64,000 bases of DNA from NCBI RefSeq assembly GCF_921293095.1, contig NC_060259.1:5890001-5954000 (forward strand), read 5' to 3'. The translations under genes were made by a program, and so were the position numbers. The DNA comes from Ischnura elegans (Eukaryota > Arthropoda > Insecta > Odonata > Coenagrionidae). Under the pieces are notes generated by a model, which ran no database searches, had not been told where the DNA came from, and worked only from the letters and a program-made list of their open reading frames with translations. How positions within the stretch are numbered: the stretch's first letter is position 1; every line of letters starts with the position of its first letter. This document shows, in pieces, positions 37,901-52,427 of this stretch.

Positions 37901-40900
37901 TAAGAATTGACAGTTTTTTGAATAGGGGTCTGCCAGGGGTACGTGCCCAGTGAGAAATGGGTGGTGGAATCCACGTGGAACCCACGTGGAATCCACGTTG
38001 AGTGGTGGATATTTGGTGGTGGTGGATATTGAGTGGTTGGACCCACGTGGAATCTACGTTGATTTCAAGTGGATTTGTGGTGATTATCATAAAATGTTAA
38101 ACAGAATTTCTAATTTGTGGAACTTAACTCTCTGGTGACATTGCGTCATTTATCATCCTGAAACCACGCTAGTTATGTGAAAATGTATCGCACATTCTAT
38201 TTTTATATAATTCGTGGAAAGGCAGCCATGAGAGCACATGAAAAATCGTAGACACATATATAGAAGGTTTAGATATAGAGTGGTTGAGGTTTTAATGGTT
38301 TTAGGACAGCACCAACTGCTGTTTTAATTTTTCCACCAAATTTCCACGTGGGATCCACGTTGATTCCACGACCAAAAACATGTTGTATCCACGTTAATTC
38401 TCCACGTGGATTCCACCACCCATTTCTCACTGGGTGAGGGAAGACGAAGCATAGCTTTTAGGGCTTGCTTTTGGAGAGAGAAGGTCTTTCTGGAGAGAGA
38501 GTCATTTCCCCAGAATAATATCCCATAAGTGATGTGGGATTGGATTTTACCATGAAAAAGTAATTTCAAGGTGTCTAAGGTGACGATTGGAGCTAATCTT
38601 CTAATGAGGAAGATGCCAGCTGTTATTTTTTTTGTAACATTATTTACATGGTGAGACCAATCCAGGTTTTCATGGATTGTTAACCCAAGAAACTTAATGG
38701 CTTGGGAACGAAGGATGGAGTTATCACTTACTCGGAGTAGGAGGCTGGAAGAGGGAGGACTTCTTTTGTGATGGAACTGAAGATGAAAGGATTTCAGGGA
38801 ATTTATGGTGAGACCATTGGATCTGCACCACTCGTTCATATCAGAGACAGCGGTTCTGCAGAGGTATCCAAGTTCAGTGGAGTTTTTTGATTGTAGCAGA
38901 CATGACGTATCATCAGCATATTGGAGGGGTTTCCCAAGAGTAATTGAATTGGGAAGGTCATTTACAAATATTAGGAAGAACAGGGGTCCAAGTATTGAGC
39001 CTTGAGGCACACCTTGATGAACTTCTAGTGGCTCTGATAGGGTAATTTTGGGACCTTTCGCAGTTTGATAGTTAAATTTGACTTGCTGCTGCCGGTTAGT
39101 AAGGAAGGATTTTATCCAGATTAAGGCATTACCATTGATACCCAGCCTCGAGAGTTTAAAGTACAAAATTTCATGATCAATACTGTCAAAGGCTTTGCTA
39201 AGATCATAAAATATGCCAACAGTGGAATTTCTATTATCTAGAGGCTTGTGGATATAGTTTAGTAGTTGGAATATGGCAGTGATTGTTGATTTTTTGTTTC
39301 GGAAGCCATGTTGACTTTCATGAAGCAATTTTTGTTGTTCCAGAAAACTTACAAGACGATTATAGAAGATTTTTTAAAAAAATTTTGAGAAGCATGAGAG
39401 AATGGATATAGGCCGATAGTTGTATGGATCTGACCGGGAGCCCTTTTTGTATATAGGGGTAACGTGGGCTAACTTAAGATAGTTGGGGAAATATCCATTG
39501 TCAAAAGTGGAATTAATGATGTCTGCCAAGGGATGGCATATGAATTTGTTAGCTGCTTTGATGATTGGAATGGGGATTTCATCAAAACCTGAGGACCATT
39601 TATTTGGAAAGGATTCTATGACTTTTTGAACCTCTTTGGGACAAGTGGGAAAAAGAAAAAAGGACCTAAAGGATGGAGAGCTTTTGGTGAGTAAGGGGTA
39701 TGGGGGAGGGGAGTCAGTGGTTTTTCTGCTGAAAGTTGAGTTGAAATTGGTAGCAATTATTACAGGATCTGTAGTTAGGGTACCATTGAAATTGAATTTA
39801 TCATGCATAGCATTATATTGACCTGATTTGGTGTTGCACTTAATAACATCCCATGCTGATTTTATGGGATTGGTCGAGGAAGTGATGTACATCTCGTTGT
39901 TGATTTTGCGGTGTGTCCTCACTCGCTCTTTGAAGACCTTAAGAGATTGTTTGTAAGAGGCCATTAGGCAATTATCAACATATTTAGCTTCCTGATGAAG
40001 CTCTCGTAGGCGTCGACTCTCAACTACTAGGTCATGGGAGTAGAGCTTTCTTTTGGAGTCTTTTGGTCTACATCTGAGGTATTTCTTGGGGAAAGCTGCA
40101 TTGAAATGCATGGTGAAGGTATCAATGAATTTTTAAATTTGTCTTTTGCATGCCCCGCTTCATAAATATCATCCCAGGTTTCAAGAGCTATTGAATTTAC
40201 AAGGTTAATGATTGATTCATCATCATCATCATGTTTGATGGATTAGAATTTTTACATCAGACTGAAATCCATAATAGCAGTGTAAATGCCGAGTGGAAAG
40301 CAAACATTTTTTTAGTGAGGTGGCGTTTTCCTTCAGAATTTTGAAAGAGATATGGGTCGAATCAACAATATGACCTATGTGTCTTGATAAAGTACTACTA
40401 TTCCTGTTATTATTTAAAATATTGTTTGAAACCTTTAATGAATATCTTAATTACTCGCCAAAATCCTGCGTTTCCTGGGACATAGGCAACCTAGCAAAAA
40501 AATAAAGCATTGATCGTTTTTCCGCATTCATTTTATAATCGTATCGTTATTAGGAAAAAAAATTTCCCCTAGTGGAGTTCCAAAAAAGGAGGGTAGTCTT
40601 AGAATCGTGTTCGTCTTAGATTCGTGCTAATACAGTGTATGAAATTGTTTTTCGATTTATTATGCTCTATAAACAATTTAAATAAAATATTTTCCGTTAA
40701 ATAAGAAATATTGGGGTGGGGGAAATTTGGTTACTGAGCAGTAATAACAACGTGCGCAAAATACAATCTCTCGGCGAGGAATTAAAAAAGGACCTCGGGT
40801 GTCCGGATGGAAGAAGGTCCGAAGGGTATTCGGCGTCCAGACAAGAGGGCGGTTGGGCTGGTCCTGTAGTCGGCCCTGAATTTTGCAAACGATAGATCAC

Positions 40901-42629
40901 GTCATAACAGATATCACGTTTCATCGCGGCGTTAACACTCACGGCGTTTGTCGCGTACGTTAATTTTCTGTTGATATACGGCCAGTGATTTTCTTATTAT
41001 TGGCTTATTAACGGACCGTGAATTTAGCGAAATTGAGACCGTGAAAACCTGAAAAAAACCGTGAAAACCTGAAAAATAACCGTGAAAACCTGGAAAAAGC
41101 CGTGAATTTCATTATTCAGGTAGAGTGGGAACCCTGGTCCAATTACAGTTGTGTAAATGCTATCACTTTCCATGTAATAATACACATTATGTAACTTGTT
41201 CCATTTTTTTTCAAAATCATTTTGTAATTTCATTGCCCAAAGCACTAAGTCCCTGAGGGTGCTTTGGCCATGAAAATATACAGTAATCTTGGAGCCTACT
41301 ATGTTTTTTAGATCCGATAGAAACGATAAAATAAGAGGGATATTTTGTTGTATGAATAGGTATAGGATTTTGTGTTTTCCCAAATAATAATAAAGGACTC
41401 CAAAAATGCCAGGTGGAACTAAAAGTTAAATGCTTCCAACGTGTGCACCTTCTTCTCATTTGATTTTGTCCTGCATATGTATATTTATTTTGTGTCTTTA
41501 TACCCCCCTCCTCTTGTGGCAGCTTGCTGGAGTATGCAGATGGATGAGTATTCATCAAAAATTTTAGCAACCTTGTAGATTAGAGAATAGGACATGTTTC
41601 TTATAGACATATTATTCTCTCACGCTTTTGTTGAACGCTGGTCATATTATAAAGCCTTTTGTCTTCATTTCCATTGCATCTAAGGCCGCAAATATATTCC
41701 AATTCAAACGGGGAGGCTGGTCAAAAAAGGTGGATGGAAGTGGTACAGAAAAAAATTAGTGAAAGAGGATTAGGTGACGAATTGTGTAATGATGAGGAGG
41801 CATGAAAATCAGGAATCTGTTGGCGTAGAACATCAAAAACTGATTTGGATACTAGTGTGCACATGCTGAGCACTAGATTTCATGTGGCAGGCATAGTGGT
41901 TTTTGTTCAGGAAATGCTTTGTCTCAATAAAGGTGATTTACAAACCCTCAACCAAGTCCTTTCACTGCTAACACTCCTGCTGTGATTGAGCATTCTTAAG
42001 ACTTGGCGTGATGGTGAGCCATTGTGAAATTGGGCCTATCAGCTGAAATATTGAATGGGGTAACAGCATTTCAGGTCAATCTTGTTCATTTTTTCTGACT
42101 GGAACTGTGTGACACCTGAAAGGAGGTTTCATGCTCCCCTCTGTAATTTCATTGTGTAGTAAGATCGCCTGTGCTTTTTCTTGCATTTATTCTCTCATTT
42201 TCATTTCAGTGTGCAAATTGGCATTGCAATATAATTCCTGTCAGACTTCAAGATTCTATTTTTCTAAAAGCCATATTTATTAGTAATAATAATATTCATT
42301 GTTATTCCAGTCATGTCACATAGAACTTGTCATTTATATAAAAATAAAGAATTGTAACTTGTATGTATTTCTACTATCTCGATGTCTTTCGTGAGAGCTA
42401 GTAATTACATATAGTGAATGGCCCTACCCATAAAGGTGATGTTTGCAAGCTTATTTTTTTATCTATGCATGCATTAAAAGCTGCCTTCCCTATAAATTTC
42501 ATCCTTCTCTTGCATATTTTAATTATATTTATTTTTCCAGTGGATGATTTAAAAGCAGAAATTCAGGCCTGGAAAGCTAACAAGTGCAAGAAGAAAGCAG
42601 AGAAGGAGAAGGAGGATGCAAAAAATTAA
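13757..42629 (+). CDS. UBE4B: Ubiquitin conjugation factor E4 B-like, last three coding exons (U-box E3/E4)
   Basis: Partial gene: coding exons 13757-13931, 14371-14517 and 42541-42629, joined in phases 0/1/1, give the last 136 residues. Exon 1 ends with [10 protein letters not shown], a hallmark just before the U-box of UBE4 proteins. Exon 2 encodes most of the U-box ([39 protein letters not shown]). Exon 3 supplies the last helix ([14 protein letters not shown]) and a lysine-rich end. The U-box binds E2 enzymes and extends ubiquitin chains on substrates, usually with the Cdc48/p97 unfoldase, in cytosol and nucleus. [12 protein letters not shown] and EIQAW fit UBE4B better than UBE4A. All donors are GTGAG and all acceptors end in CAG. 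The upstream roughly 1000 residues lie before the window. Confidence 0.93.
13932..14370 (+). other. UBE4B-like intron (439 bp)
   Basis: Begins GTGAGTATG and ends CCCTTTTCAG. No mobile element or RNA was recognised in it. Confidence 0.85.
14371..14517 (+). CDS. UBE4B: UBE4B-like exon: U-box core
   Basis: Acceptor CCCTTTTCAG, donor GTGAGA. It encodes most of the U-box fold: the E2-binding loops around [17 protein letters not shown] and [14 protein letters not shown], and the central helix [10 protein letters not shown]. It ends after one base of a valine codon completed 28 kb downstream. Confidence 0.95.
15284..18115 (-). mobile_element. Non-LTR retrotransposon C: nearly intact endonuclease + reverse transcriptase
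   Basis: Minus-strand LINE with one long frame from about 18115 to 15460, broken only by a TAA at 16680-16678; the codons either side are in the same frame. The endonuclease part has [31 protein letters not shown] and SDHLAINVN. The RT part has [25 protein letters not shown] and [18 protein letters not shown] before the stop. After it come [29 protein letters not shown] and YADDTSII, then the C-terminal [17 protein letters not shown]. The 3' end is AGGAACAATAAAAATTATTA plus (ATT)n at 15284-15305. It is 5'-truncated within the endonuclease and ORF1 is missing. A plus-strand 3' fragment of the same family lies at 35045-35637. Confidence 0.92.
18116..19300. other. Unassigned G-rich stretch with poly-G tracts
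   Basis: Contains G homopolymers at about 18900-18917 and 19078-19089 and G-rich flanks. Open frames here on both strands are low-complexity artefacts. It may include the 5' flank of element C, but no domain or repeat family was recognised. Confidence 0.4.
19301..21470. other. Unassigned intronic stretch
   Basis: No coding domain, RNA or mobile element was recognised. AT-rich with only short frames. Confidence 0.4.
21515..21588 (-). repeat. tRNA-like SINE head (minus)
   Basis: Reading the minus strand, box A is TAGCTTAACTGG and box B is GGTTCGAATCC. A D-arm (GCTT/AAGC), an anticodon arm (CTCGG/TCGAG) and a T-arm (CCGGG/CCCGG) can all be drawn. The acceptor stem has mismatches and position 33 is C rather than T, with GGA in the anticodon place. 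It is therefore a pseudo-tRNA promoter for RNA polymerase III rather than a working tRNA. Confidence 0.8.
21774..21846 (+). repeat. tRNA-like SINE head (plus)
   Basis: Same boxes A and B as the neighbouring minus copy (TAGCTTAACTGG, GGTTCGAATCC). The acceptor begins CCCTCGG, which pairs poorly with the 3' TCAAGGC. It lies head-to-head with 21515-21588, about 185 bp apart. Confidence 0.8.
22503..25338 (+). mobile_element. Mariner element with decayed transposase, split by hAT-type copy 2
   Basis: The left end CGAGGGTTGTTCAATAAGTC follows TA at 22501-22502, a typical mariner terminus. The transposase starts at ATG 22682 ([16 protein letters not shown]). It is interrupted at 22740-24372 by a hAT-type element whose removal restores [13 protein letters not shown]. 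Beyond it come [36 protein letters not shown] and [11 protein letters not shown] (helix-turn-helix and linker). Near 25150 a [12 protein letters not shown] block matches the last aspartate motif of the mariner DD34D domain. Near 25240-25320 is a degraded C-terminus. Multiple stops and frameshifts make it a pseudogene. No right terminal inverted repeat was found. Confidence 0.88.
22740..24372. mobile_element. Non-autonomous hAT-type element, copy 2, with a pogo-like remnant inside
   Basis: 1633 bp from TAGAGATGTGCGAATAG to ATTCGACCCATTTCTA, flanked by GTTAACGC (22732-22739) and GTTAATGC (24373-24380), a 7/8 match. It shares termini and core with copy 1. It also carries about 600 bp absent from copy 1, including a degraded CENP-B-type segment near 23715-23830 (GLKIIE-like, then RLGLSTST-like) that is clearer in the related fragment at 37068-37200. 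Confidence 0.88.
25490..27570 (-). mobile_element. Non-LTR retrotransposon E (distinct RT clade), degraded
   Basis: Minus-strand RT in consecutive broken frames. 27269-27030 has [17 protein letters not shown] and [14 protein letters not shown]. 27011-26793 has [19 protein letters not shown]. 26784-26230 has [20 protein letters not shown] and [11 protein letters not shown]. 26191-25820 is the C-terminal part ([29 protein letters not shown]). In-frame stops lie between blocks. Its YADDLQIY motif and C-terminus differ from elements A-D. An endonuclease fragment at 28342-28680 may have belonged to the same insertion. Confidence 0.85.
28098..28330 (-). mobile_element. Short LINE 3' tail fragment
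   Basis: A (TAA)n tract at 28098-28113 followed by sequence reading, on the minus strand, into a LINE-type 3' end. No coding motif was recognised. It separates element E from the endonuclease fragment. Confidence 0.4.
28342..28680 (-). pseudogene. LINE AP-endonuclease fragment
   Basis: Minus-strand frame of 112 codons with [39 protein letters not shown] and [13 protein letters not shown]. These correspond to the middle of the AP-like endonuclease of Jockey/CR1-type LINEs, with GDFN as the metal-binding motif. No RT follows in frame. Confidence 0.75.
28681..30615. other. Unassigned intronic stretch
   Basis: No domain or repeat family recognised. It is AT-rich with short open frames. The right boundary abuts a THAP-like exon on the minus strand. 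Confidence 0.4.
30616..30806 (-). pseudogene. Decayed THAP-domain exon
   Basis: Minus strand, starting ATG at 30806 ([13 protein letters not shown]). After a one-base shift it continues with [20 protein letters not shown] and [11 protein letters not shown], then a donor GTAAGT at 30615. Cysteines, the WYDAAW tryptophan and C-EGHF match the C2CH THAP zinc finger. A frameshift after CVPN and one TAA break the frame. THAP domains are DNA-binding modules of P-type and related transposases and of derived host genes. The remainder was not found. Confidence 0.65.
31104..31818. mobile_element. Non-autonomous Tigger-like element (715 bp)
   Basis: The left end CAGCAGACTCCCGATTATCC and the right end, whose inverse reads CAGTAGACTCCCGATTCTCC, form imperfect terminal inverted repeats of about 20 bp. 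TA lies on both sides (31102-31103, 31819-31820). Subterminal TTATCCG repeats and the CAGTAGACTC ends are typical of Tigger/pogo elements. No transposase is encoded. Confidence 0.85.
31822..34010 (-). mobile_element. Non-LTR retrotransposon F with ORF1 but an internal deletion
   Basis: Minus-strand LINE ending in a TTATTATAAT-type tail next to the Tigger-like element. ORF1 (33785-32921) is largely intact. It is followed within about 70 bp by the RT thumb/C-terminus (32851-32348: [47 protein letters not shown]; 32293-31928: C-terminal part). The entire endonuclease and the YADD-containing palm are missing, so roughly 2 kb has been deleted internally. 33790-34010 may be 5' UTR. Confidence 0.85.
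32921..33785 (-). CDS. LINE ORF1 protein: PHD-type finger, coiled coil, FP-like C-terminal domain
   Basis: Open from at least 33785 ([13 protein letters not shown]). A C-x2-C...H-x2-C...WYCISC pattern makes a PHD-type zinc finger at the N-terminus. A charged helical stretch follows ([20 protein letters not shown] through TVHAAIQ-like heptads). The C-terminal domain has [25 protein letters not shown] and [20 protein letters not shown], and ends [12 protein letters not shown]. This arrangement is typical of ORF1 proteins of CR1/Jockey-type LINEs, which bind the element RNA and chaperone it. The usual start probably lies just upstream of 33785, where the frame is damaged. Confidence 0.8.
34298..34708 (+). 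mobile_element. tRNA-derived SINE tandem dimer, 12-bp target duplication
   Basis: 411 bp flanked by TTCTGCTCCTCA at 34286-34297 and 34709-34720. Order: partial tRNA-like head truncated at its anticodon stem (34301-34347), tail (AATGATTTTTTT and on), body, then a full tRNA-like head (34604-34676) and a second short tail. The unit length from head to head is about 305 bp. It has the same modules as 21481-21945, where they are inverted instead of tandem. Confidence 0.82.
35045..35637 (+). mobile_element. 3' fragment of LINE family C, sense to the host gene
   Basis: Plus-strand copy of the C-terminal RT and 3' UTR of the family seen at 15284-18115. It includes sequence matching the [11 protein letters not shown] and [11 protein letters not shown] region and the 3' end GGAACAATAAAAGTTATTAT. 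The frame is shifted several times. A hAT-type element inserted immediately behind its tail at 35644. Confidence 0.85.
36180..37315. mobile_element. TAGAGATG-family core with pogo-like helix-turn-helix remnant (left part)
   Basis: Matches the interior of copies 1 and 2 (CCCTCCATTCAGCA, GTCCCAGCTCGCGCA, GGAGGTCAACTGCTGCATGA, GACGAAGGGATAT). At 37068-37200 the plus strand reads [10 protein letters not shown], then [14 protein letters not shown], then [15 protein letters not shown] with stops between, a CENP-B/pogo-type DNA-binding domain. The matching right part resumes at 40228-40510 beyond LINE D. The family's termini are not visible here. Confidence 0.7.
37477..40228 (-). mobile_element. Non-LTR retrotransposon D, interrupted by a CCCA-type MITE
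   Basis: Minus-strand LINE related to C. 40111-39374 holds the region before the RT ([49 protein letters not shown]). A TAA at 39376-39374 is the only stop before 39328-38436 ([47 protein letters not shown]). The C-terminus continues at 37945-37584 after the 489-bp insertion. The tail is (ATT)n at 37477-37494. It is truncated in the endonuclease-RT linker, so it cannot move, but the RT is remarkably open. Confidence 0.9.
37946..38434. mobile_element. 489-bp CCCA-type MITE with perfect inverted termini and 2-bp duplication
   Basis: Starts CCCAGTGAGAAATGGGTGGT and ends with its exact inverse; the inverted repeat is perfect for at least 33 bp. TG lies on both sides (37944-37945, 38435-38436). 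The subterminal region is built from CCACGTGGAATCCACGTGG-like palindromic words. It interrupts the RT of LINE D; deleting it with one TG restores the frame ([11 protein letters not shown]), consistent with the same region of elements B and C. It encodes nothing. Confidence 0.93.
40228..40510. mobile_element. TAGAGATG-family core, right part beyond LINE D
   Basis: Matches copy 2 at about 23915-24150 (ACTGAAATCCATAATAGCAG, GTGAGGTGGCG, GAAAGAGATATGGGTCGAAT, CTTAATTACTCGCCAAAATC). Followed at about 40590-40640 by GTCTTAGAATCGTG and GTCTTAGATTCGTGCT, which resemble a pogo-type subterminal repeat. Confidence 0.6.
41143..42540. other. Unassigned end of the giant intron
   Basis: No element or domain recognised. 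It ends with the polypyrimidine tract and acceptor TTTTTCCAG of the last UBE4B-like exon. Confidence 0.45.
42541..42629 (+). CDS. UBE4B: UBE4B-like terminal coding exon
   Basis: Acceptor ATTTTTCCAG. It completes a valine codon and encodes [14 protein letters not shown], the last U-box helix, then a lysine-rich tail [13 protein letters not shown] and TAA. The tail is longer and more basic than the short C-terminus typical of vertebrate UBE4B. Confidence 0.9.
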
Positions 42630-42954
42630 ATCCTTCCCGTCCAGTATATTTGAAGAAGGATTTGGTGTAATTGTTTTCACTGTATGTAACTTCCAGAGCC
42701 TTTGAAATACTTTTCAAGGCCCTTAAGAGATGTTGTAAAAGTCATGCATCATAAATGTCAAGAGTTACCGATTAATGTTCAGTGTTCTATGTTGCTGTAT
42801 TTCCAATACCAAGGATACAGTAATCATTTCCTAACAGGGTTGGAAATATACAATTCCTTGTCTTTCCAGTGTTAAGAGCTCTCGAGCTGCTGAACTTATA
42901 TAAATGTGTTTTGTGTCACAGCACAAAATTACATGTTTTATGTTTTGTAATAAA
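42630..42954 (+). terminator. UBE4B-like 3' UTR and polyadenylation signal
   Basis: AATAAA at 42949-42954, 320 bp after the stop codon and preceded by a T-rich stretch. This is the only canonical signal in the first 330 bp after the stop. Confidence 0.7.
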
Positions 42955-43634
42955 GAGTAAAAAATAATTAGTCTTAAATTATTTGGTAGACAAATAGAGG
43001 AGAAATCTAGCTCTTGCTGTGTTACCTTATTGTTGCTGAATCTGATGTGATGTTTTCCACAGTGAAAATTTTAAATAATTTTGTTTTTTTTTTCTGTTTT
43101 CACATCCTTTGTCTTGTCTACCATCCCTCATCTACTAAGAACGTTCGTTGGCTCATCAAGCCAGTGATTATTTTTTACAGATTATACTGTGTTTAAATGA
43201 TGGATGATATTCAATGTGTGCTTTTTATATTGATTTATTAGCGGAACATTTTAAGAATCAATAAAGCACATGAAACAGTATTTGCCTGACCTCATAAAAC
43301 AATTATTTTTTCGTTCAGTCCCCAGCTATCTGATTTGTGACGAAGCAAGTCTGAACATGAAATTCATCCTCTCCACCTCATTGAAAATTCTTGGAATGAA
43401 CAATATAATTTATATTTTATAAAATAGGCTGTCATTAAATAATTATTAATTATAATATCTCCATTATTAGATTCAATCAGAATTTACTAAAATCAAATAA
43501 TATGTGTTAGTAGCCTTCCTGTGCTCTCTTATTTTCAGCAAATGTTTATACTGTAGGAAAAATTTGATTGTTGCCCACAGCCATCTGAATGGTAATAGTC
43601 CATCCTATTGTGCTGCATTAAAGTAAATATATTT
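42955..43634. other. Unassigned downstream flank
   Basis: AT-rich; no coding domain or repeat family recognised. Confidence 0.4.
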
Positions 43635-43662
43635 TCTTCTCAGGACTTATAAGTCCTGAGAC

Positions 43663-43724
43663 TTTTTGAAGAGACCTTTCTTCTCAGGACTTATAAGTCC
43701 TGAGAAGAAAGGTCTCTTCAAAAA
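43663..43724. repeat. Perfect 62-bp palindrome
   Basis: Arms of 31 bp (TTTTTGAAGAGACCTTTCTT and following) meet at GGACTTA/TAAGTCC with no spacer. A smaller palindrome with the same centre (CTCAGGACTTATAAGTCCTG) lies just before it at about 43640-43661. It could form a cruciform. Confidence 0.95.
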
Positions 43725-43849
43725 TCATTTGTATATATACAATCTTATATACAATCTTAAGATATACAGGGAATGCAAGAGCCAAATCAAGACTGTCAAT
43801 TATTGATTCAGGGAAAGAGTATTACAGTAAAAACTGGGCTAAGGCAACT

Positions 43850-43975
43850 GTACTGTGACTGTGCTATGACAACTCCACTGTGACTGTGCTATGGCAACTC
43901 CACTGTGACTGTGCTATGACAACTCCACTGTGACTGTGCTATGGCAACTGCACTCTGGGTGTGCTATAACTGTAC
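43850..43975. repeat. 25-bp tandem repeat, about 5 units
   Basis: Units of CTATGACAACTCCACTGTGA plus CTGTG, alternating GACAACT and GGCAACT forms. Followed to about 44070 by words of opposite polarity (CACAGTACAG, GCACAGTTACAG), so the whole 43830-44090 region is a weak inverted structure. It ends TTTTTTTGTATGGG, like the inverse of a CCCATAC terminus. Confidence 0.8.
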
Positions 43976-44195
43976 TGTGATGTTTCAATTTAAGTGCAGT
44001 CTAAGTAGAGTCACAGTACAGTCCCTTTAGCACAGTTACAGTGCAGCTTTAGTACAGTCGCAGCACAGATTTTTTTGTATGGGTATTGAGGCATATCCCA
44101 GTTGCTAACATGCACCGGTGACATCTCATGGGGACTTCTGAATATTTTCTCTAGAGATGCGCGAATACTAGAAAGTATTCGAGATATCGAATAAT

Positions 44196-46197
44196 CCCAG
44201 TCAACACAGTGTTCGTAATGAGGTCTTATATGAACTCATACGTTGGACTCCTTTAAGATTCCACATTAAGAGACATGAAAGGGCCTTTAAGACCTCACAC
44301 TTCATGAGGTCACATGACTGATGTCTTTAAGACCGCATACTTCATGAAGTCTTGAAGACCTCACACTTCATGGGGTCTTCAAGGTCTCACACACATGAGG
44401 CCTGAAAAATCAAGTCATGTATATGTTTAATTAATTATAATTTCAATCGTAATTATATATTTCTGCGTGTACAATATTTTTTCTTCCTTCAATTAACTCT
44501 TTATATTAAGAGATGGGTTCGTAAACTTCTCCCTCCGATTCTATTAAATAAGCTGACACTTCCACTTTCCGCTAGGTCCGCCATTGTGTTGTCGTGTTAT
44601 TCTACTGCCTTGAGCTCAAACGTCAAGTTTATGCTTAATATCGTGTGTACTCCATGGCCTAGTTCTTGCTCGTGTTTTTCCTTGTGTCTACGAACGTGAA
44701 TCAGGATCCCATCGGATCTGAGATCGGCACGAACCTTAAGGTTTGAAAAGACAATTGTGGACATCATGATGTGTTACGTGCACGGAGACTTGGAAGGTAA
44801 GTTTCAATGATTTTATGTGTCCGATTCTTTATCCACTTGTTAATGAGAAAATCCATTAATTATACTATTTTAAAAGCTGGTTAAGTTCATGCTTATCATT
44901 GATTATCGGTAAATATATCCATGTAAAATATTTAGGTGGAACACGTTTTGTAACGTGCCTTTGTTGTTGTTCATGTTTCATTTCATTCATTCATCGTATC
45001 CTTATAAATTTGCTGTTATCGCATTTTAAATTATCTCCGCTAATATACACTATCTCGATCATATCTAGTGCGTGGTCAAGCAATGATTTTATTATCTCGG
45101 GTTCACAAAACAGTTTTCCCTAAGATCATTGAAGTTTATAAACTTCTCAGTTCTCAAAATCATGACGTAAACAAACAAAAGTGCTAACCGATTTATAATT
45201 TGCTTGATTTCACTTCGTAATGTAACTTATGGAACGATAAAGCATGGAAATAACGTACACCATGTATTTAAGTTAACTTCTAAGAGCATTATAATGCAAT
45301 AGGAATGTAATTAAGTGTAAGAGTTAATCAAAAGTAGTTCACTAATTCGGTTACTCCTAAAATTAACCAAGTTAAAACGGTCATCTTCGGTGCTAAAACC
45401 GGCCCTGGGAGTATTTAGGGACTGCTAATGAGATAAATAGTCTTTATCTGGTTTATTTGATGTTATTATGTTATCAATTATAACTCTCAACAAACTTAAG
45501 TTCAATGTTTTTTTGCAGCCTCTCTTATGAAATGGAACCCGACATCAGCAAGTAGTGTCGCCTTGGAGAGAGTGGAGAGGCAGTGGCTGTATCAAGCGGA
45601 GACAGCGTAAAGTATGCAGAGAGGAAGAATTCAAAAACTCGTGATGTTTGTTTATTGACTTAATATTATGAAGAATAAATTTATAAATATCATGAAGTTG
45701 TCTATTCCATTTTGTTTTTCTGCCGTATTTCCACCTATGGTTCTCATTAAATGTATTATTTTGCTTTATTTTAATTGGATACGTCGGGTTCTTATGTCAT
45801 CGGAGAATTTTCTTAAATAAAGGTGCGTAAAGTATTTTGAAATCTTAATTAATGGGCTGGTAGGGGCCCCGGCGTTTTTGTAGGCTATTTCAAAGCCATC
45901 TATCGGAATTATTACGAAGTGGGTAATTTTTCTGGTTCTCCAGGTAGTTCCATTATCACACACGTGGAGGCGCCACATTTGCGCCTATATCATATTGGAA
46001 CTGTTATAGGAGTCCTATAAGACCTCTTGACTGAGCTCCTTCAGAGTCGTGTGAGACCGCGAAAAGAATTCCCATACGAGTGCATATGACCTCACGGAGA
46101 CATCATTATGAGGCCATTTGGGACTCTTTTGTAGGAGTCCTACAAATTCGTCAGACTTCTTTATGACCTCATGCATGAGTCATACGTGTTTACTGGG
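44196..46197. mobile_element. 2002-bp CCCA-type element with 2-bp duplication and an internal spliced unit
   Basis: Starts CCCAGTCAACAC and ends GTGTTTACTGGG, imperfect terminal inverted repeats, with AT on both sides (44194-44195, 46198-46199). Comparison with intact family members (GAAATAATTATGC) supports AT as the duplication. Subterminal zones of about 200 bp at each end repeat GAGGTC, ATGACCTCA and CCTACAA-type words in both orientations. The middle carries an exon-intron-exon structure on the plus strand. Confidence 0.82.
44766..45610 (+). CDS. Small spliced open frame inside the CCCA-type element
   Basis: ATG at 44766 opens MMCYVHGDLE, ending at 44796 before a perfect donor GTAAGT. 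A 722-bp intron ends TTTTTTTGCAG at 45518. The second exon (45519-45610) continues in phase (ASLMKWNPTSASSV, RQWLYQAETA) to TAA at 45608. AATAAA follows at 45674-45679. About 39 residues from the first ATG; the frame stays open upstream, so the start is uncertain. No known domain. It could be a captured host gene fragment, a regulator of the element, or a non-coding transcript with an incidental frame. Confidence 0.45.
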
Positions 46198-47175
46198 ATT
46201 ATGCTAAAAGTACAATCTCGAATACTTTGAATTTCGCGTCATACACTGTCGCGCGCACGTCGTGAAATGTCTCGTTGGTAGTTAACTTGGAAACAACATA
46301 GAGGACGCTAGTCGACCAATCGGGGGAAAAAATCCGAAAATCCCCGATTTCACCCACGAAACCCCTCAAAAAAATTAAAATTGGCGGAAAAATGTCGACT
46401 TTTGGGGTACCTTCCGTTACGCATTGAGCTACTGCTCCCGAACCGTTCCAGTCATCGGAAAGATCATCATGGATTCGAATACTACAAGAGTGCGGGCTTC
46501 CCGTGATGTCAGTTTTGTTTCTTTTAAGCCAAACGACGGCTCCGCAATGACGCGTAAAAGTTGATAAAGGATCAAAATTACAGTAAAAAACGGCATATGC
46601 GCGGGCACCTGGCTGAATGCATCAATAAACTTACGGCAAAATATCCTTAAAAGATATCGCCTCGTTAGCAACTCTGATAGGTGAGACTATATTGTAGCAC
46701 AATTCGTAAATTGTAACCTGATATCCTGTTTCGAAAAAAACTGCCGCATCAACTGCGGAGAAGCTCAGCTGCGAGGGTATTGAGATTCGCCAGAAATCAC
46801 CATCGTATTATTCTATTTCCTTGCTTAAATAACGTTAAATATAAGTTGTGTTTGGTATCATTCTTTTTTAATTACGTGCACATTACTTAATTTCAATCCA
46901 ATAAAAGTATAATACCAATGCTGAAAGTCATTTTTAGACACGTTTTGGGCTAATAGGTGACTAATGCAGCAGTTGACCTCCAGAAACGAGGAACTTAGAA
47001 GCAGGTAGGCTGAAAAAGGTCAGCGGACAAGAAAGGGGAGGCATGAAAAAGGATTCTATTGTTCTCGTGTAACTTGATATTTTCTTTCGAAGCCAAGGTC
47101 TTCGTAATACGATCCCTGCGCGAGCTGGGACTTTTTTATATTTATGGGATTAGGAAAGCGTAAGAGGGGGGAGGC

Positions 47176-47229
47176 GAGTGCTGAATGGAGGGGGATAGCG
47201 GATCCGCTATCCCCCTCCATTCAGCACTC
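47176..47229. repeat. Perfect 54-bp palindrome at the inversion junction
   Basis: Centre GCGGA/TCCGC; arms of 27 bp containing GTGCTGAATGGAGGGGGATA and its inverse. The arm sequence is the CCCTCCATTCAGCACT core of the hAT-type family. Confidence 0.95.
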
Positions 47230-47236
47230 CCTCCCT

Positions 47237-47274
47237 TAGCGCATTTCCCAAGATCGATCTTGGGAAATGCGCTA
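47237..47274. repeat. Perfect 38-bp palindrome, adjacent to the first
   Basis: Centre AAGATC/GATCTT with arms TAGCGCATTTCCCAAGATC and inverse, 7 bp after the 54-bp palindrome. Its arm is the family's next core segment (GCGCATTTCCCAAGATC). Confidence 0.95.
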
Positions 47275-48291
47275 TAGCTGCTGTATTCGAATGCTGTAGA
47301 CGTAGTAGTTTTCCTTGGGTTGAGTTGCAAAGTTCATGAAGTTGACAAAACGGCTAATTTTTCAGTGCGCGGAGTCATTTATTGCACTGGCCGTGTCTAC
47401 ATTTTTGATTTTTTTGTAATAAAATAAATCAGAATTTAGGATAAAATTTCCTTTAAAATGACGTATATTTCATTATTATAGCATGCAGTGAAGCCAGGAT
47501 ATAAATTTTCAAAGTACAGCGGCACATATATTTTCATATTTCCTCCCTTGATTTTAAACATCATGGAATTTTCTGTCCTTCCGTAAATGAAATTGAACAA
47601 GTGCCATAAATAATTTGAGTCCATCGACCATCGAGAAACACCTATCTCGATTTTTGTTGTGAAGTTGAGTTTTTATTCTACGGCGGCCGAATTATCGAAA
47701 AATCTCAGTTTCAAGTCATTCAGTCAATGAAATATGGAAATATTATTTATATTAAAGTTATCTTCGCTCACATAACACACGGGTTTATCATTCCGTTTAT
47801 TATACTCTTATTTATCCGTAACGCTCATCCCGACAGACGGCATGCATCTAGGCGTTTCTTTTAATTTCCTCCGTGGGAATGCAGACGAAATTTTTTTCTG
47901 GGGTGTTATTGCACAGAGGAACAATGCACCACTTGTAATTTTTCCTTACTTTACCCATGTTCTCCTTTAAACGCAACGTGGCTCTTCCAAACCTGCAGTT
48001 TGGGCTTGGATCTTGAACTCCTACTGAACTATGACGTCACGGCCAAAGATTAGTGGGGGCGGTATTTTTTAGCCCGCGAAACTCGGGAGACTTTTGGGAG
48101 TCAATTTCTAGTGTATAAACTGAATTTTACGCGGAAAAAAGTATATTGCGGTACTAAGTGTTTACTGTAGTATATCAGCATACTGTTTATAAAAAGTATG
48201 CAATTTCCCTATTCTAGTATTCGAGGTATTCGAAATTCGAGAAATGTTTTAATATTCGAATTCGAGAAATCTGCTATTCGACCCATCTCTA

Positions 48292-49295
48292 TTTTTCACA
48301 TACTCATGGACATCAAGTTGTGGTGTAATATCATCGAGCAGTGAATTATGCATTTAGGACAACATAAAGTTTAATTCTGTTGATATCAACTTGTGTTGCT
48401 AATAATGTAATACCTGTATATTTATTTAGGTGCAATATTTTTAGAAATCATGATCCTCATTGTCTACCTACATTTTTCATACTTCTTTCTACCTGATGCT
48501 GTGCAATAATTACGTATTAAGAGTGTAGGATTTTTATGTATGGCGTATATAGGTTGTTTGAAACGGCATATAAGGGAAACTGGAAGGGAACAAGTTGGAA
48601 TGTAAGGAAATGGATAGAGATGAGACACAAGGGAATCACTGCATTCCACAGTGAACGTGTTCTGTTTTTGTATATGAAATGTAAGTTATATGACCAATGG
48701 AAAAACGTGGCATGTGTTCATCCCCCCGCATCCGCACCTCAGGTTCCATGGTTAAAGCTGTCGATGTTCCATATCTGACTCAAAAAATTGTTCCTTGTCT
48801 TTGAAATCGGTTCAATATCTGACTCGTCCACCTTTTCAATCCTAGAACTTCAGTAAAATATTAGAAACTGATCTGATTCTGGATCAGAGTCAGATACGAA
48901 TATTGTTGGAAACTGTTTGGGCATTTTTTGATGGGAATTTTAACCTTTTCTTGGAATTCTGTAGACAACCCTCTGCAAATATAAAATGAAACACCTCATT
49001 TGGATGAAAGGGACCAAGCAGAATGATCGTCCAGTAGCACTATGACCTTGTTTTTTCCTTTATATGCCATACTTTTAAAAATTTTGGCCTGGTCAAGCTA
49101 ATTTAAGCCCTATTTACGCCCAGTTGAAATATGCTCCCTGAGTGGAGTGTATCAAGCAGAATGATCAGTGAATGAGACTGTTTGGTTAGGTGACTCATAG
49201 ACTTTAATAGTAAATAAATGTACCGTATAATTAAGTAAATTAATGTAACGTATAAGCGTGTGTAAGAGGCGCACCCCTATTTTGAGCATCGAAGC
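48292..49295. other. Unassigned intergenic stretch
   Basis: Between a hAT-type copy and the THAP-carrying element. An 80-codon plus-strand frame at 48536-48778 has no recognisable domain. Confidence 0.4.
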
Positions 49296-49805
49296 TACCC
49301 ACACAGCACAAGAACTCGCGTACATAATGTATTTACCAAGGAAATTGATGTATACTATACATAATGTATTTTGTAACGTATTATTGCTGTATTACAGCGT
49401 TATTATATGTAGGGATTTACATTAAGTATATTGGTGTATCCATACCGGTATAATGCATAAACCTGTGAGTTCATATTAGCGACCAAAAATATAAATGTAA
49501 CATATAGGAGAGTACACTGCCGAGGAAAATTATATTTGTGGATTAATATTCACTCTGAAAACTAATAATTGCCTAGCACATTATCGGTTTTAATGAGTCC
49601 ACTCATAAGATCATCTTTGAGCGAAGTAGTGATATCCTTGAAACCCCTACGTTGTTTACGTGTGAATTTACGTTACATTTCACCACTTTTTAGGGATTTT
49701 TGTGGTGTAAGTTATTGAGAATTGAAGTTTCTGATGATAGTGAATTTTCCTTTATTCTTGAATTTCATTCGCTGGGCTTAAGAAACGTGTGTTTGTGAGA
49801 CATTT

Positions 49806-50876
49806 TTGTTAAAAACGCCTTTCACGTGTTCAGTGCCGGAGTGCGAAGAAAACTCCAGGAGTGGACCCAAAGTTAAGTTTTTAGCTTTCCAAGATATCAT
49901 GAGCTGGAGATCAAGTGGATTCGGGCGATCAGAAGAGACAATTTCATCTCCACGAAAAACAGTAAGGTATGTACCCTTTCACGCTGTAATTATTTGGATG
50001 TAATTTCTAGCTAGATGTGGCTTGGAGATGTTGATGAATGTCTCCAATTCTAAAAGTGGTGATTTAAAATATTGTAGCGGCAATTCGACTGAAAATTCTT
50101 TTATTTTAGTTGTTTTTTGTATTATTTCGTTCAGTAAACGTGTGGTTGAAGGAGTTACTGGGAATTATAATTTAGCAGCCAAGTTTATGGTATCGAATAT
50201 TATTTCTTAGCTTGCCCTTTGGTGTGTTATGCGTCTGAAACTCTGTACTCAGTTAAAAATACTTATTTAACTTAGAATTGAAAAGCTGTTTGAATTATTT
50301 ACGCCCTAAGTTATATACTAGGGTATTTTCGATGAAGCTTCCTGAGTCATTGTATTTTTGGCGTAGTACCGTATATTTCCGGGGATAACACATACCTTTT
50401 AAGGTATTCATGCTTTCGAATTAATTTGAGCTTATGTATCATTTCGCAAGACCAGCGAATACTCACTCAATAAGTTTCATGGAAAGCAATGCTGAGAAAT
50501 TCATTGAGTCTCGTAAGTAACTTATATGCTATTAGTGTGTATGAACCGCCGTGAATGGAGATACGCGTTTTTCTCTTACAATCGTGGGTGATGCAATGAA
50601 CCGGAATTTAGCTGTGTCCGGCTTTTATCATCTCAAATTATCTTATGCTTATATCTAGTTTTTTATAAAAAAAATCATTGAGGTATGTAGTTATCTCCTG
50701 TATTTACCAGCCAAGTCATTAGATATATTTCTCATTCAGAAATGCCTTAAATTGAAAAGACTAAGTAATTTACTTGGTATTTTCTTATTTATTAATTTTA
50801 GGTGTGTGAGCTGCACTTCACATCGAGTGACATCAGAAAAGAATCTGTGGCCTTGCACGAGAAGATGGGGAGATAA
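49806..50876 (+). pseudogene. THAP-domain region of the CCCA-type transposase, two exons
   Basis: The first exon encodes KTPFTCSVPECEENSRSG and then, after a one-base slip in a T run near 49880, FPRYHELEIKWIRAIRRDNF. It ends at 49966 before GTATGT. The second starts at 50802 after TTTATTAATTTTAG, in phase, with VCELHFTSSDIRKESVALHE. C-x4-C, the tryptophan and C-x2-H complete a C2CH THAP finger, a sequence-specific DNA-binding module. The frame begins without an ATG (TTG TTA) and stops at 50876. It is decayed by start loss, frameshift and early stop. Confidence 0.75.
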
Positions 50877-51770
50877 TTCGTGTTGAATTAAGGTGCCGAG
50901 ACTGGAGGAAGGTGCCATTTCTTCAGTTACCAAACTATCATTCAGAAGACAGAAAGACAGTGGTATAAGTGACGTATAGAACTATGGTGGATGTGGATTT
51001 TTTTAAGTGGATGATTGACAATAGACATTCGTTGGAGAAACTATTGAAGATAGTTAGTATGGCTTCTGTCAATGTACTTAAAAATAATTTTTGTTCAAAA
51101 GAGAATGACAATATTTGTTTCAGCAAAGTATTTCATGGTAACAAGAGAGGATTGCAGCTATTATTGTGATTGAATAATGAAAATATAAAATATCTGTATT
51201 TTAATTGTTTTTTTCTTTCCTGCCACTATAATTCATTGTGGTGATTTCCTCATGCATGGTAAGAGCTGAGATGTGATTTAAGAGATATCATATTCTTTAT
51301 ACATATTTTTATGCTGGTGGTTTGGCAGGACTTTCAAATTTTTATTAGATTGATACATCTACTGCAAAGTGACATTGAAACTTTTGCTCATCCCAAACAA
51401 TATTTCAAATGCATAAGCGCCTGGGACTGGTACGTTTTAGTAGCTGAGGTTGGACTATATGTAAATTTTGGCTTTCATTTTGATGAATACGAGCGGAATA
51501 ATAGCAGATGTGTCAATGATGTTATGATTCACTGCCAATTGTCATTGAACAATCTTATTTACTCAGGCTCTAGGGTAAGATTTTCATAGCCCATCTGTCA
51601 TGCAATGTCTAATTCAGTGAAAAATTGAAGAAGAATTTACTCTTAATTAATAGAACCATTTGGGACCTTGTGTGAACACCTTTTACCCTGCTAGAAAGAA
51701 ATTATCTATCCAAGGAAAGTGCATGGAATGCAACCAGGTTTAATCAAATGCTTGGCCTCGCCACACACGC

Positions 51771-52060
51771 TTGGGAACAAGCCTTATCTCTAGGTGGCTG
51801 TGTTACAACCCGTTACTAGCAATCCCTGGCATTAGGATGGTTATGGATTTTCCTCTTGACTGCATGCATTTGCTTTGTTTAGGGGTCATGAGGAAGATAT
51901 TATTAGCTTTTATGAGAGGCAACAAAAATGTTAAGCTTCCAAGCTATGCTTTAATTATTTGTATTGATCGGTTAGTAAGTATTGCACCTCATATCCCCTG
52001 TGAATTTGTTAGGAAAAGACGTTCACTTACATGAACTACTGAGGTTGAAGGCAGCTTGTA
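51771..52060 (+). pseudogene. Transposase segment with DCMHLLCLGVMRKIL motif
   Basis: Plus-strand frame with NPLLAIPGIRMVMDFPLDCM, HLLCLGVMRKILLAF and HIPCEFVRKRRSL, continuing after a frameshift into HELLRLKA. From memory this pattern recurs in large arthropod transposase-like proteins, possibly of the CMC/EnSpm (tnp2) type. A database search is needed to place it. The preceding frame at 51311-51589 may be part of the same protein. Confidence 0.55.
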
Positions 52061-52104
52061 TATGTAATTGTTACAATATAACTGTCATGGAAATATACAT
52101 TTTG

Positions 52105-52269
52105 GTACACCATGTAATTTACGTGGAAAAATACACCACTGTACATCATGTAATTTACGTGGAAAAATACACCACTGTACATCATGTAATTTACGTGGAA
52201 AAATACACTACTGTACATCATGTAATTTTCATGGAAAAATACACTAGTGTACATCATGTATTACACTGG
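52105..52269. repeat. 36-bp subterminal tandem repeat, four full units
   Basis: Units of GTACATCATGTAATTTACGT plus GGAAAAATACACCACT start at 52105, 52141, 52177 and 52213. A partial fifth begins at 52249. They lie about 160 bp inside the right end of the THAP-carrying element and could be transposase-binding sites. Confidence 0.93.
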
Positions 52270-52427
52270 ATTATACGTGTACTAGAGGACATTTGAAGCA
52301 TATTTACAGTGAAAATACACAGAAATTACTGCTGTATTACAATTGAATACAGCATCCGGTCTTCGTGTATTTTGACTGTATTACAGATGCAATACATGTG
52401 TATTCCACCTTGTGTGCTGTATGGGTA

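Follow-up and report, generated by a model that had tools for sequence, protein, structure and literature searches.

Among transposons described so far, the closest to the elements analysed here belong to the group named TRC (Transposon Related to CACTA) in Schistosoma, Aedes, and Tribolium, which comprises animal CACTA elements with CCC termini and 2-bp direct repeats (DeMarco et al., 2006, PMC1636069; published statements here and below are those of the compared passages of each paper). In those passages the 2-bp repeat is present in only 7 of 14 SmTRC1 copies, the aspartate pair of the TRC transposase is spaced 80 residues apart, and a diagnostic motif, [LVI]-D-x-[LM]-H-x3-L-G (box A), is given as present in eumetazoan TRC and three of four fungal elements and as absent from flowering plants (PMC1636069). 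A Hydra element (CCCAGCCAACATTGAC, 2-bp duplication, Repbase EnSpm-4N1_HM) has been filed in the TRC group (PMC4298943), and Daphnia CACTA elements were classified by their terminal repeats with citation of the TRC paper (PMC2884549); in the compared passages on snail–schistosome transfer, CACTA appears only within a citation of that same paper (PMC13155389). At a deeper level, the layout D, D, C(2)C, H(3-4)H, E is described as common to EnSpm, Mirage, Chapaev, and Transib (PMC12730594), and the Pfam families Transposase_21 and DUF1258 as relatively close homologs (PMC3985635).

The plant CACTA elements (En/Spm) resemble the present ones at the superfamily level, namely in a Transposase_21-related DDE transposase. 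Subterminal repeats occur in them too; their duplication is 3 bp long, and their termini are CACTA, whereas the elements here carry CCCA. Flowering-plant CACTA proteins are reported to be devoid of the TRC box A (PMC1636069), unlike the E3-type proteins described below, which possess it. A plant-type CACTA assignment was rejected on the termini, CCCA here in place of CACTA; the published animal TRC ends are without CACTA too (PMC1636069).

The window, that is, the whole stretch of DNA analysed (64,000 nucleotides of Ischnura elegans, contig NC_060259.1), contains three elements, E1, E2, and E3, which very probably belong, as non-autonomous members, to the animal TRC branch of the CACTA (EnSpm) cut-and-paste superfamily. 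When checked against the sequence, their coordinates, CCCA..TGGG ends, and flanking dinucleotides agree with the original prediction. The features, in window positions, are as follows.

37944-37945, unstranded: E1 left target-site duplication TG; TG single in five of five unoccupied LINE copies read
37946-38434, plus strand: E1, 489 bp, MITE-like, apparently non-autonomous, with other copies in the genome
E1 terminal inverted repeat: 34 bp, perfect, CCCAGTGAGAAATGGG...
E1 subterminal units: repeated, of the CCACGTGG type
38435-38436, unstranded: E1 right target-site duplication TG
44194-44195, unstranded: E2 left target-site duplication AT; single AT in two and GT in one of three unoccupied host repeats read
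44196-46197, plus strand: E2, 2002 bp, putative non-autonomous TRC element; ends CCCAGTCAACACAG / CCCAGTAAACACG
E2 subterminal repeats: GACCTCA type
46198-46199, unstranded: E2 right target-site duplication AT
49296-49297, unstranded: E3 left target-site duplication TA; single TA in four and TG in one of five unoccupied host repeats read
49298-52425, plus strand: E3, 3128 bp, putative deletion derivative of a TRC element; ends CCCACACAGCACA / CCCATACAGCACA
49803-49966, plus strand: E3 THAP exon 1 as read; frame broken after LAF, predicted GT donor at 49967
50802-50873, plus strand: E3 THAP exon 2 as read, VCELHFTSSDIRKES..., running to a stop codon; predicted acceptor
51804-52031, plus strand: E3 transposase remnant, 76 aa, box A LDCMHLLCLG
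52105-52260, plus strand: E3 subterminal tandem array, 36-bp unit, 4.3 copies
52426-52427, unstranded: E3 right target-site duplication TA

Upstream of E2, the window also holds a 25-bp tandem repeat, ACTGTGCTATGGCAACTCCACTGTG, in 5.4 copies (43833-43967).

Within the window alone, such bounds are easily mimicked: the dinucleotides on the two sides are equal in 116 of the 1867 CCCA..TGGG pairs separated by 100-3200 bp, and in-window evidence by itself was therefore rejected as proof. When equal-flank pairs up to 6 kb apart are ranked by terminal match, E1 (16/16) and E3 (13/16) both stand out, and E2 (11/16) has a score that six further pairs also reach. The ends, the further copies, the 2-bp duplications, and the unoccupied sites of all three elements are established at the level of the whole genome (1.72 Gb), in which copies were sought by scoring the best 40 of 816 E1, 165 E2, and 1291 E3 candidates. 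Within that sample each element is multicopy, and its other copies have the same ends, with CCC on both termini of the copies read, the far ends of L024 and L025 included. This genome-wide collection, which the original prediction had called for, upheld the 2-bp duplication: of 35 copies read, 34 have the same dinucleotide on both sides (17/18 for E1, 10/10 for E2, and 7/7 for E3), the sole unequal copy being an E1 with flanks AT/CT. One E1 copy lies inside a run of G and is thus uninformative on duplication length. Two copies, L024 with flanks TT and L025 with flanks CC, were read apart from the 33 tabulated ones, of which 32 have equal flanks; the E3 tally omits L026-L028, whose E3-like portion sits within a different element. 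As a control, the 33 tabulated copies were compared with one another, and 182 of the 1056 pairings between copies gave agreeing flanks. The duplicated dinucleotide is variously TA, AT, TG, AA, AG, CT, AC, GG, TT, or CC, and this variation among copies shows that it is duplicated rather than being a fixed target.

The same variability removes several familiar superfamilies. Tc1/mariner/pogo would need a fixed TA duplication, and here TG, AT, AA, AG, CT, AC, GG, and others are found. Kolobok and piggyBac, which duplicate TTAA, were rejected on a duplication that is here 2-bp and variable. Apart from these comparisons, one locus places two of the elements in contact: at L011:1489-3491 a copy of E2 lies within the apparent terminal repeat of an E1 copy (CATTTCTCACTG|E2|TGGG), and E2 seems to have jumped into the end of E1.

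Unoccupied sites were sought by joining the flanks of each element with one copy of the dinucleotide and running the product against the genome. For the LINE that hosts E1, 11 of 41 matches cover positions 1-400 over exactly 400 bases; the E2 junction is spanned by 14 of 44 matches, and that of E3 by 38 of 68, two further long matches being the window's own flanks and the others short. A second copy of the dinucleotide occurs in none of the 13 unoccupied sites read (five for E1, three for E2, five for E3), so that these sites speak for the 2-bp length and not for another, which the prediction had named as its refutation. At two of the 13, the dinucleotide departs by one base from that of the window (L051, GT for AT; L057, TG for TA), differences that fit divergence of the host repeats. 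The claim that the LINE frame is restored without E1 is arithmetically sound, insert plus duplication amounting to 491 bases and 39373-38096-491 to 786, a multiple of 3.

Only E3 of the three had been credited with THAP and transposase-like sequence, and this is confirmed. Its two THAP exons, joined with an X at the frame break, match PF05485 (E 3.1e-10, 41.1 bits), and its 76-aa remnant is 87% identical to residues 322-397 of L044, a relative with an open frame of 672 aa. A tblastn search with three relatives as queries located no stretch of E3 that bears the catalytic aspartates and glutamate; with just 76 transposase residues left as well, E3 is best read as a deletion derivative, and the window copies of all three elements look non-autonomous. 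A Pfam scan of the window fragments of E2 and E3 gave no family over cut-off, and a search of solved structures returned a single match at E 0.96, which is not meaningful.

Elsewhere in the genome the remnant matches at least 150 places (the best 150 of 333 candidates were scored), several of them with open frames of about 670-740 aa. The left end of the L044 element matches that of E3; its right end was looked for and not found. Three such E3-type proteins, L044, L069, and L071, all share, in order, N-x-D-G, C-D-x-P-A, CxxC, L-D-Y-M-H-x3-L-G, HxxxH, and F-x-[FY]-E, and thereby display the CMC layout D, D, C(2)C, H(3-4)H, E by both motif and order. Their first two aspartates lie 78, 80, and 80 residues apart, and the TRC motif reads LDYMHL[LV]CLG in all three, next to LDCMHLLCLG in E3 of the window.

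In Pfam scans, L044 and L069 gave no Transposase_21 (PF02992) match; DUF4218 scored E 0.14 and 0.19 on them, below cut-off, and L069 drew two other sub-threshold families. Two further proteins of the genome, L045 and L070, serve as a bridge. Transposase_21 matches L045 at 2.4e-12, over cut-off, and L070 at 1.1e-4, below it, while DUF1258 scores 1.1e-6 and 6.3e-6 on the same two, so that the closer family is Transposase_21 for L045 and DUF1258 for L070. The strict TRC motif fails in both, a P replacing [LVI] at its start (PDYMHxxLLG). In hhalign comparisons, E3-type and Transposase_21-type proteins of the genome align over 293 columns with a probability of 99.4% (E 2.3e-21) and over 284 columns with one of 99.5% (E 2.9e-22), and a single control protein, pogo-like by eye, gave 0.1%. 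Through the bridge proteins L045 and L070, the E3-type proteins thus appear homologous to Transposase_21, as far as profile comparison can tell.

E2, in whose window copy no coding remnant of this kind was seen, is joined to the same enzymes through its ends. In a pattern search the left end of E2 occurs 112 times in the genome and the right end 97 times, with none for a reversed-pattern control. For 87 of the 100 left ends listed, out of the 112, a right end lies no more than 30 kb away; the resulting pairs measure 1.6-2.1 kb in 62 cases and 9.8-25.8 kb in eight. Counting 149 of the 150 E3-type and all 43 Transposase_21 matches, an E3-type transposase match falls inside two of the 87 pairs (C14 and C17; 0.028 expected) and a Transposase_21 match inside three (C9; 0.008 expected). 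The three C9 copies share flanks and are best counted as one insertion. The flanks of the enclosing E2-ended elements are AC/AC, AA/AA, and CT/CT, and it is inside the C14 element that the L069 ORF lies; in L071 the transposase match is 2.9 kb from an E2-like end with three mismatches. E2 and E3 are both linked in this way to TRC-type transposase genes, and the proposal that they belong together now has shared transposase homology behind it besides the ends. The C9 copies themselves, at 103.77, 104.91, and 105.35 Mb, show the same flanking bases as read and a CT duplication, a triplication attributable to segmental duplication or to an assembly effect.

E3-like sequence also travels in other company. 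A family represented by L029-L033 and L035-L042 begins CCCTAGTAGCAC, ends CCCTAGTAGCACAAAAAGG, and has equal 2-bp flanks at 13 of 13 loci tested, its members measuring 2.8-2.9 kb at 11 loci and 3.1 and 7.3 kb at the other two. Inside this CCCTAG family lie the 2160 bp with which an E3-like element starts: a TRC element has become lodged within a second one and has been amplified together with it. At one locus, a transposase-like frame that is pogo/Tigger-like by eye occupies L030:5600-7141, downstream of the nested element.

The Aedes aegypti TRC has a 10-bp inverted repeat, CCCAGTCAAC, identical to the first ten bases of E2, and like the elements here it has 2-bp direct repeats and the TRC transposase motif; it is 9.2 kb long, against the 2 kb of the non-autonomous E2 (PMC1636069). 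The first 12 bases of the Tribolium castaneum TRC, CCCTAGTAGCAC, are those that start the CCCTAG family; the two depart after base 12, and the Tribolium element, also with 2-bp direct repeats, is about 5.2 kb (PMC1636069). Hydra Spongebob (EnSpm-4N1_HM), assigned to TRC/CACTA, has CCCAGCCAAC.. ends and a 2-bp duplication, as here, its terminus departing from that of E2 after CCCAG (PMC4298943).

Several observations weigh against placement in TRC: the E3-type proteins L044 and L069 have no Pfam Transposase_21 match; the ends are CCCA and not CACTA; the bridge proteins L045 and L070 match DUF1258 as well and depart from the strict TRC motif; E1 is without an autonomous partner among the elements recovered, and one of its 18 copies has unequal flanks; and in the founding paper only 7 of 14 SmTRC1 copies show the 2-bp repeat. 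The first two of these, the scanned E3-type proteins being without a significant Pfam family and the termini without CACTA, would favor a new and unnamed superfamily of DNA transposons characterized by CCCA ends and 2-bp duplications. Such a superfamily is nevertheless scarcely credible given the CMC catalytic and zinc-motif layout and the TRC box A of the E3-type proteins, their profile match to Transposase_21-type proteins, and termini identical to the published Aedes and Tribolium TRC ends. The suggestion of an unnamed or poorly described group has accordingly lapsed, TRC having been described in 2006 with CCC termini and 2-bp repeats (PMC1636069). A finer question is whether these CMC transposons belong to the Mirage group instead of TRC/EnSpm. 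Both L045 and L070 also match DUF1258, which PMC3985635 equates with Mirage, and L070 scores it above Transposase_21, so that Pfam does not cleanly separate the EnSpm and Mirage branches here. The best match of L045 is nonetheless Transposase_21 (2.4e-12 vs. 1.1e-6), and the TRC motif in the E3-type proteins, together with published TRC ends on E2 and the CCCTAG family, makes a Mirage assignment very unlikely.

The placement of E1 is a matter of its own. That the three elements form one group stands insofar as they are three members of one kind; E1 joins the other two by its ends, duplication length, and subterminal repeats only, and on this sequence evidence it would agree with TRC in all three respects. 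It might instead be a MITE of another superfamily that has CCCAGT ends and a 2-bp duplication by coincidence, E2 and E3 alone being TRC: no autonomous partner came to light in the searches made, and its match to the E2 ends ceases after CCCAGT. Since the CCCAGT ends are held in common with E2, the 2-bp duplications are variable in 17 of 18 copies, and the subterminal repeats resemble those of E2 and E3, coincidence is an unlikely explanation, and we retain E1 as a probable TRC element.

The THAP exons permit a less decided reading. Of 12 loci tried, five E3 copies had both anchors found, and each of these carries its THAP exons upstream and in the same strand orientation, with junctions that are donor- and acceptor-like when read by eye. 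Tentatively, then, a THAP-type domain could be the N-terminal part of this TRC/CACTA transposase lineage, reading its subterminal repeats. The exons could also, at a little under an even chance, be a captured or separate gene instead of providing the transposase with its N-terminal DNA-binding part, since the core ORF of L044 is open by itself and visual inspection of the preceding 1 kb revealed no THAP frame; the same-strand, splice-like arrangement in the five E3 copies argues the other way. The passages compared place THAP with hAT-like and P-element transposases, not CACTA (PMC3985635, PMC5753468), and contain no statement joining a THAP domain to a CACTA or EnSpm transposase.

Taking E1, E2, and E3 as TRC elements, we infer a cut-and-paste chemistry. 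Full elements elsewhere in the genome would make a CMC-type DDE transposase, which would cut at the CCC..GGG ends and excise the element; insertion with a 2-bp stagger would then leave the 2-bp duplication. The same kind of transposase may also move E1, and the subterminal repeats and the THAP domain may help the enzyme recognize the ends.

The find is well supported but ordinary, in that the TRC group is already known; E1, E2, and E3 open no new superfamily, and the THAP exons are of minor interest. What the three elements add to the TRC branch of CACTA is a set of families whose boundaries are well defined and for which the same genome offers both unoccupied sites and open transposase frames. 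That branch was first described from few elements, and its rule of CCC termini plus 2-bp duplications is now supported by more copies than in the founding paper.
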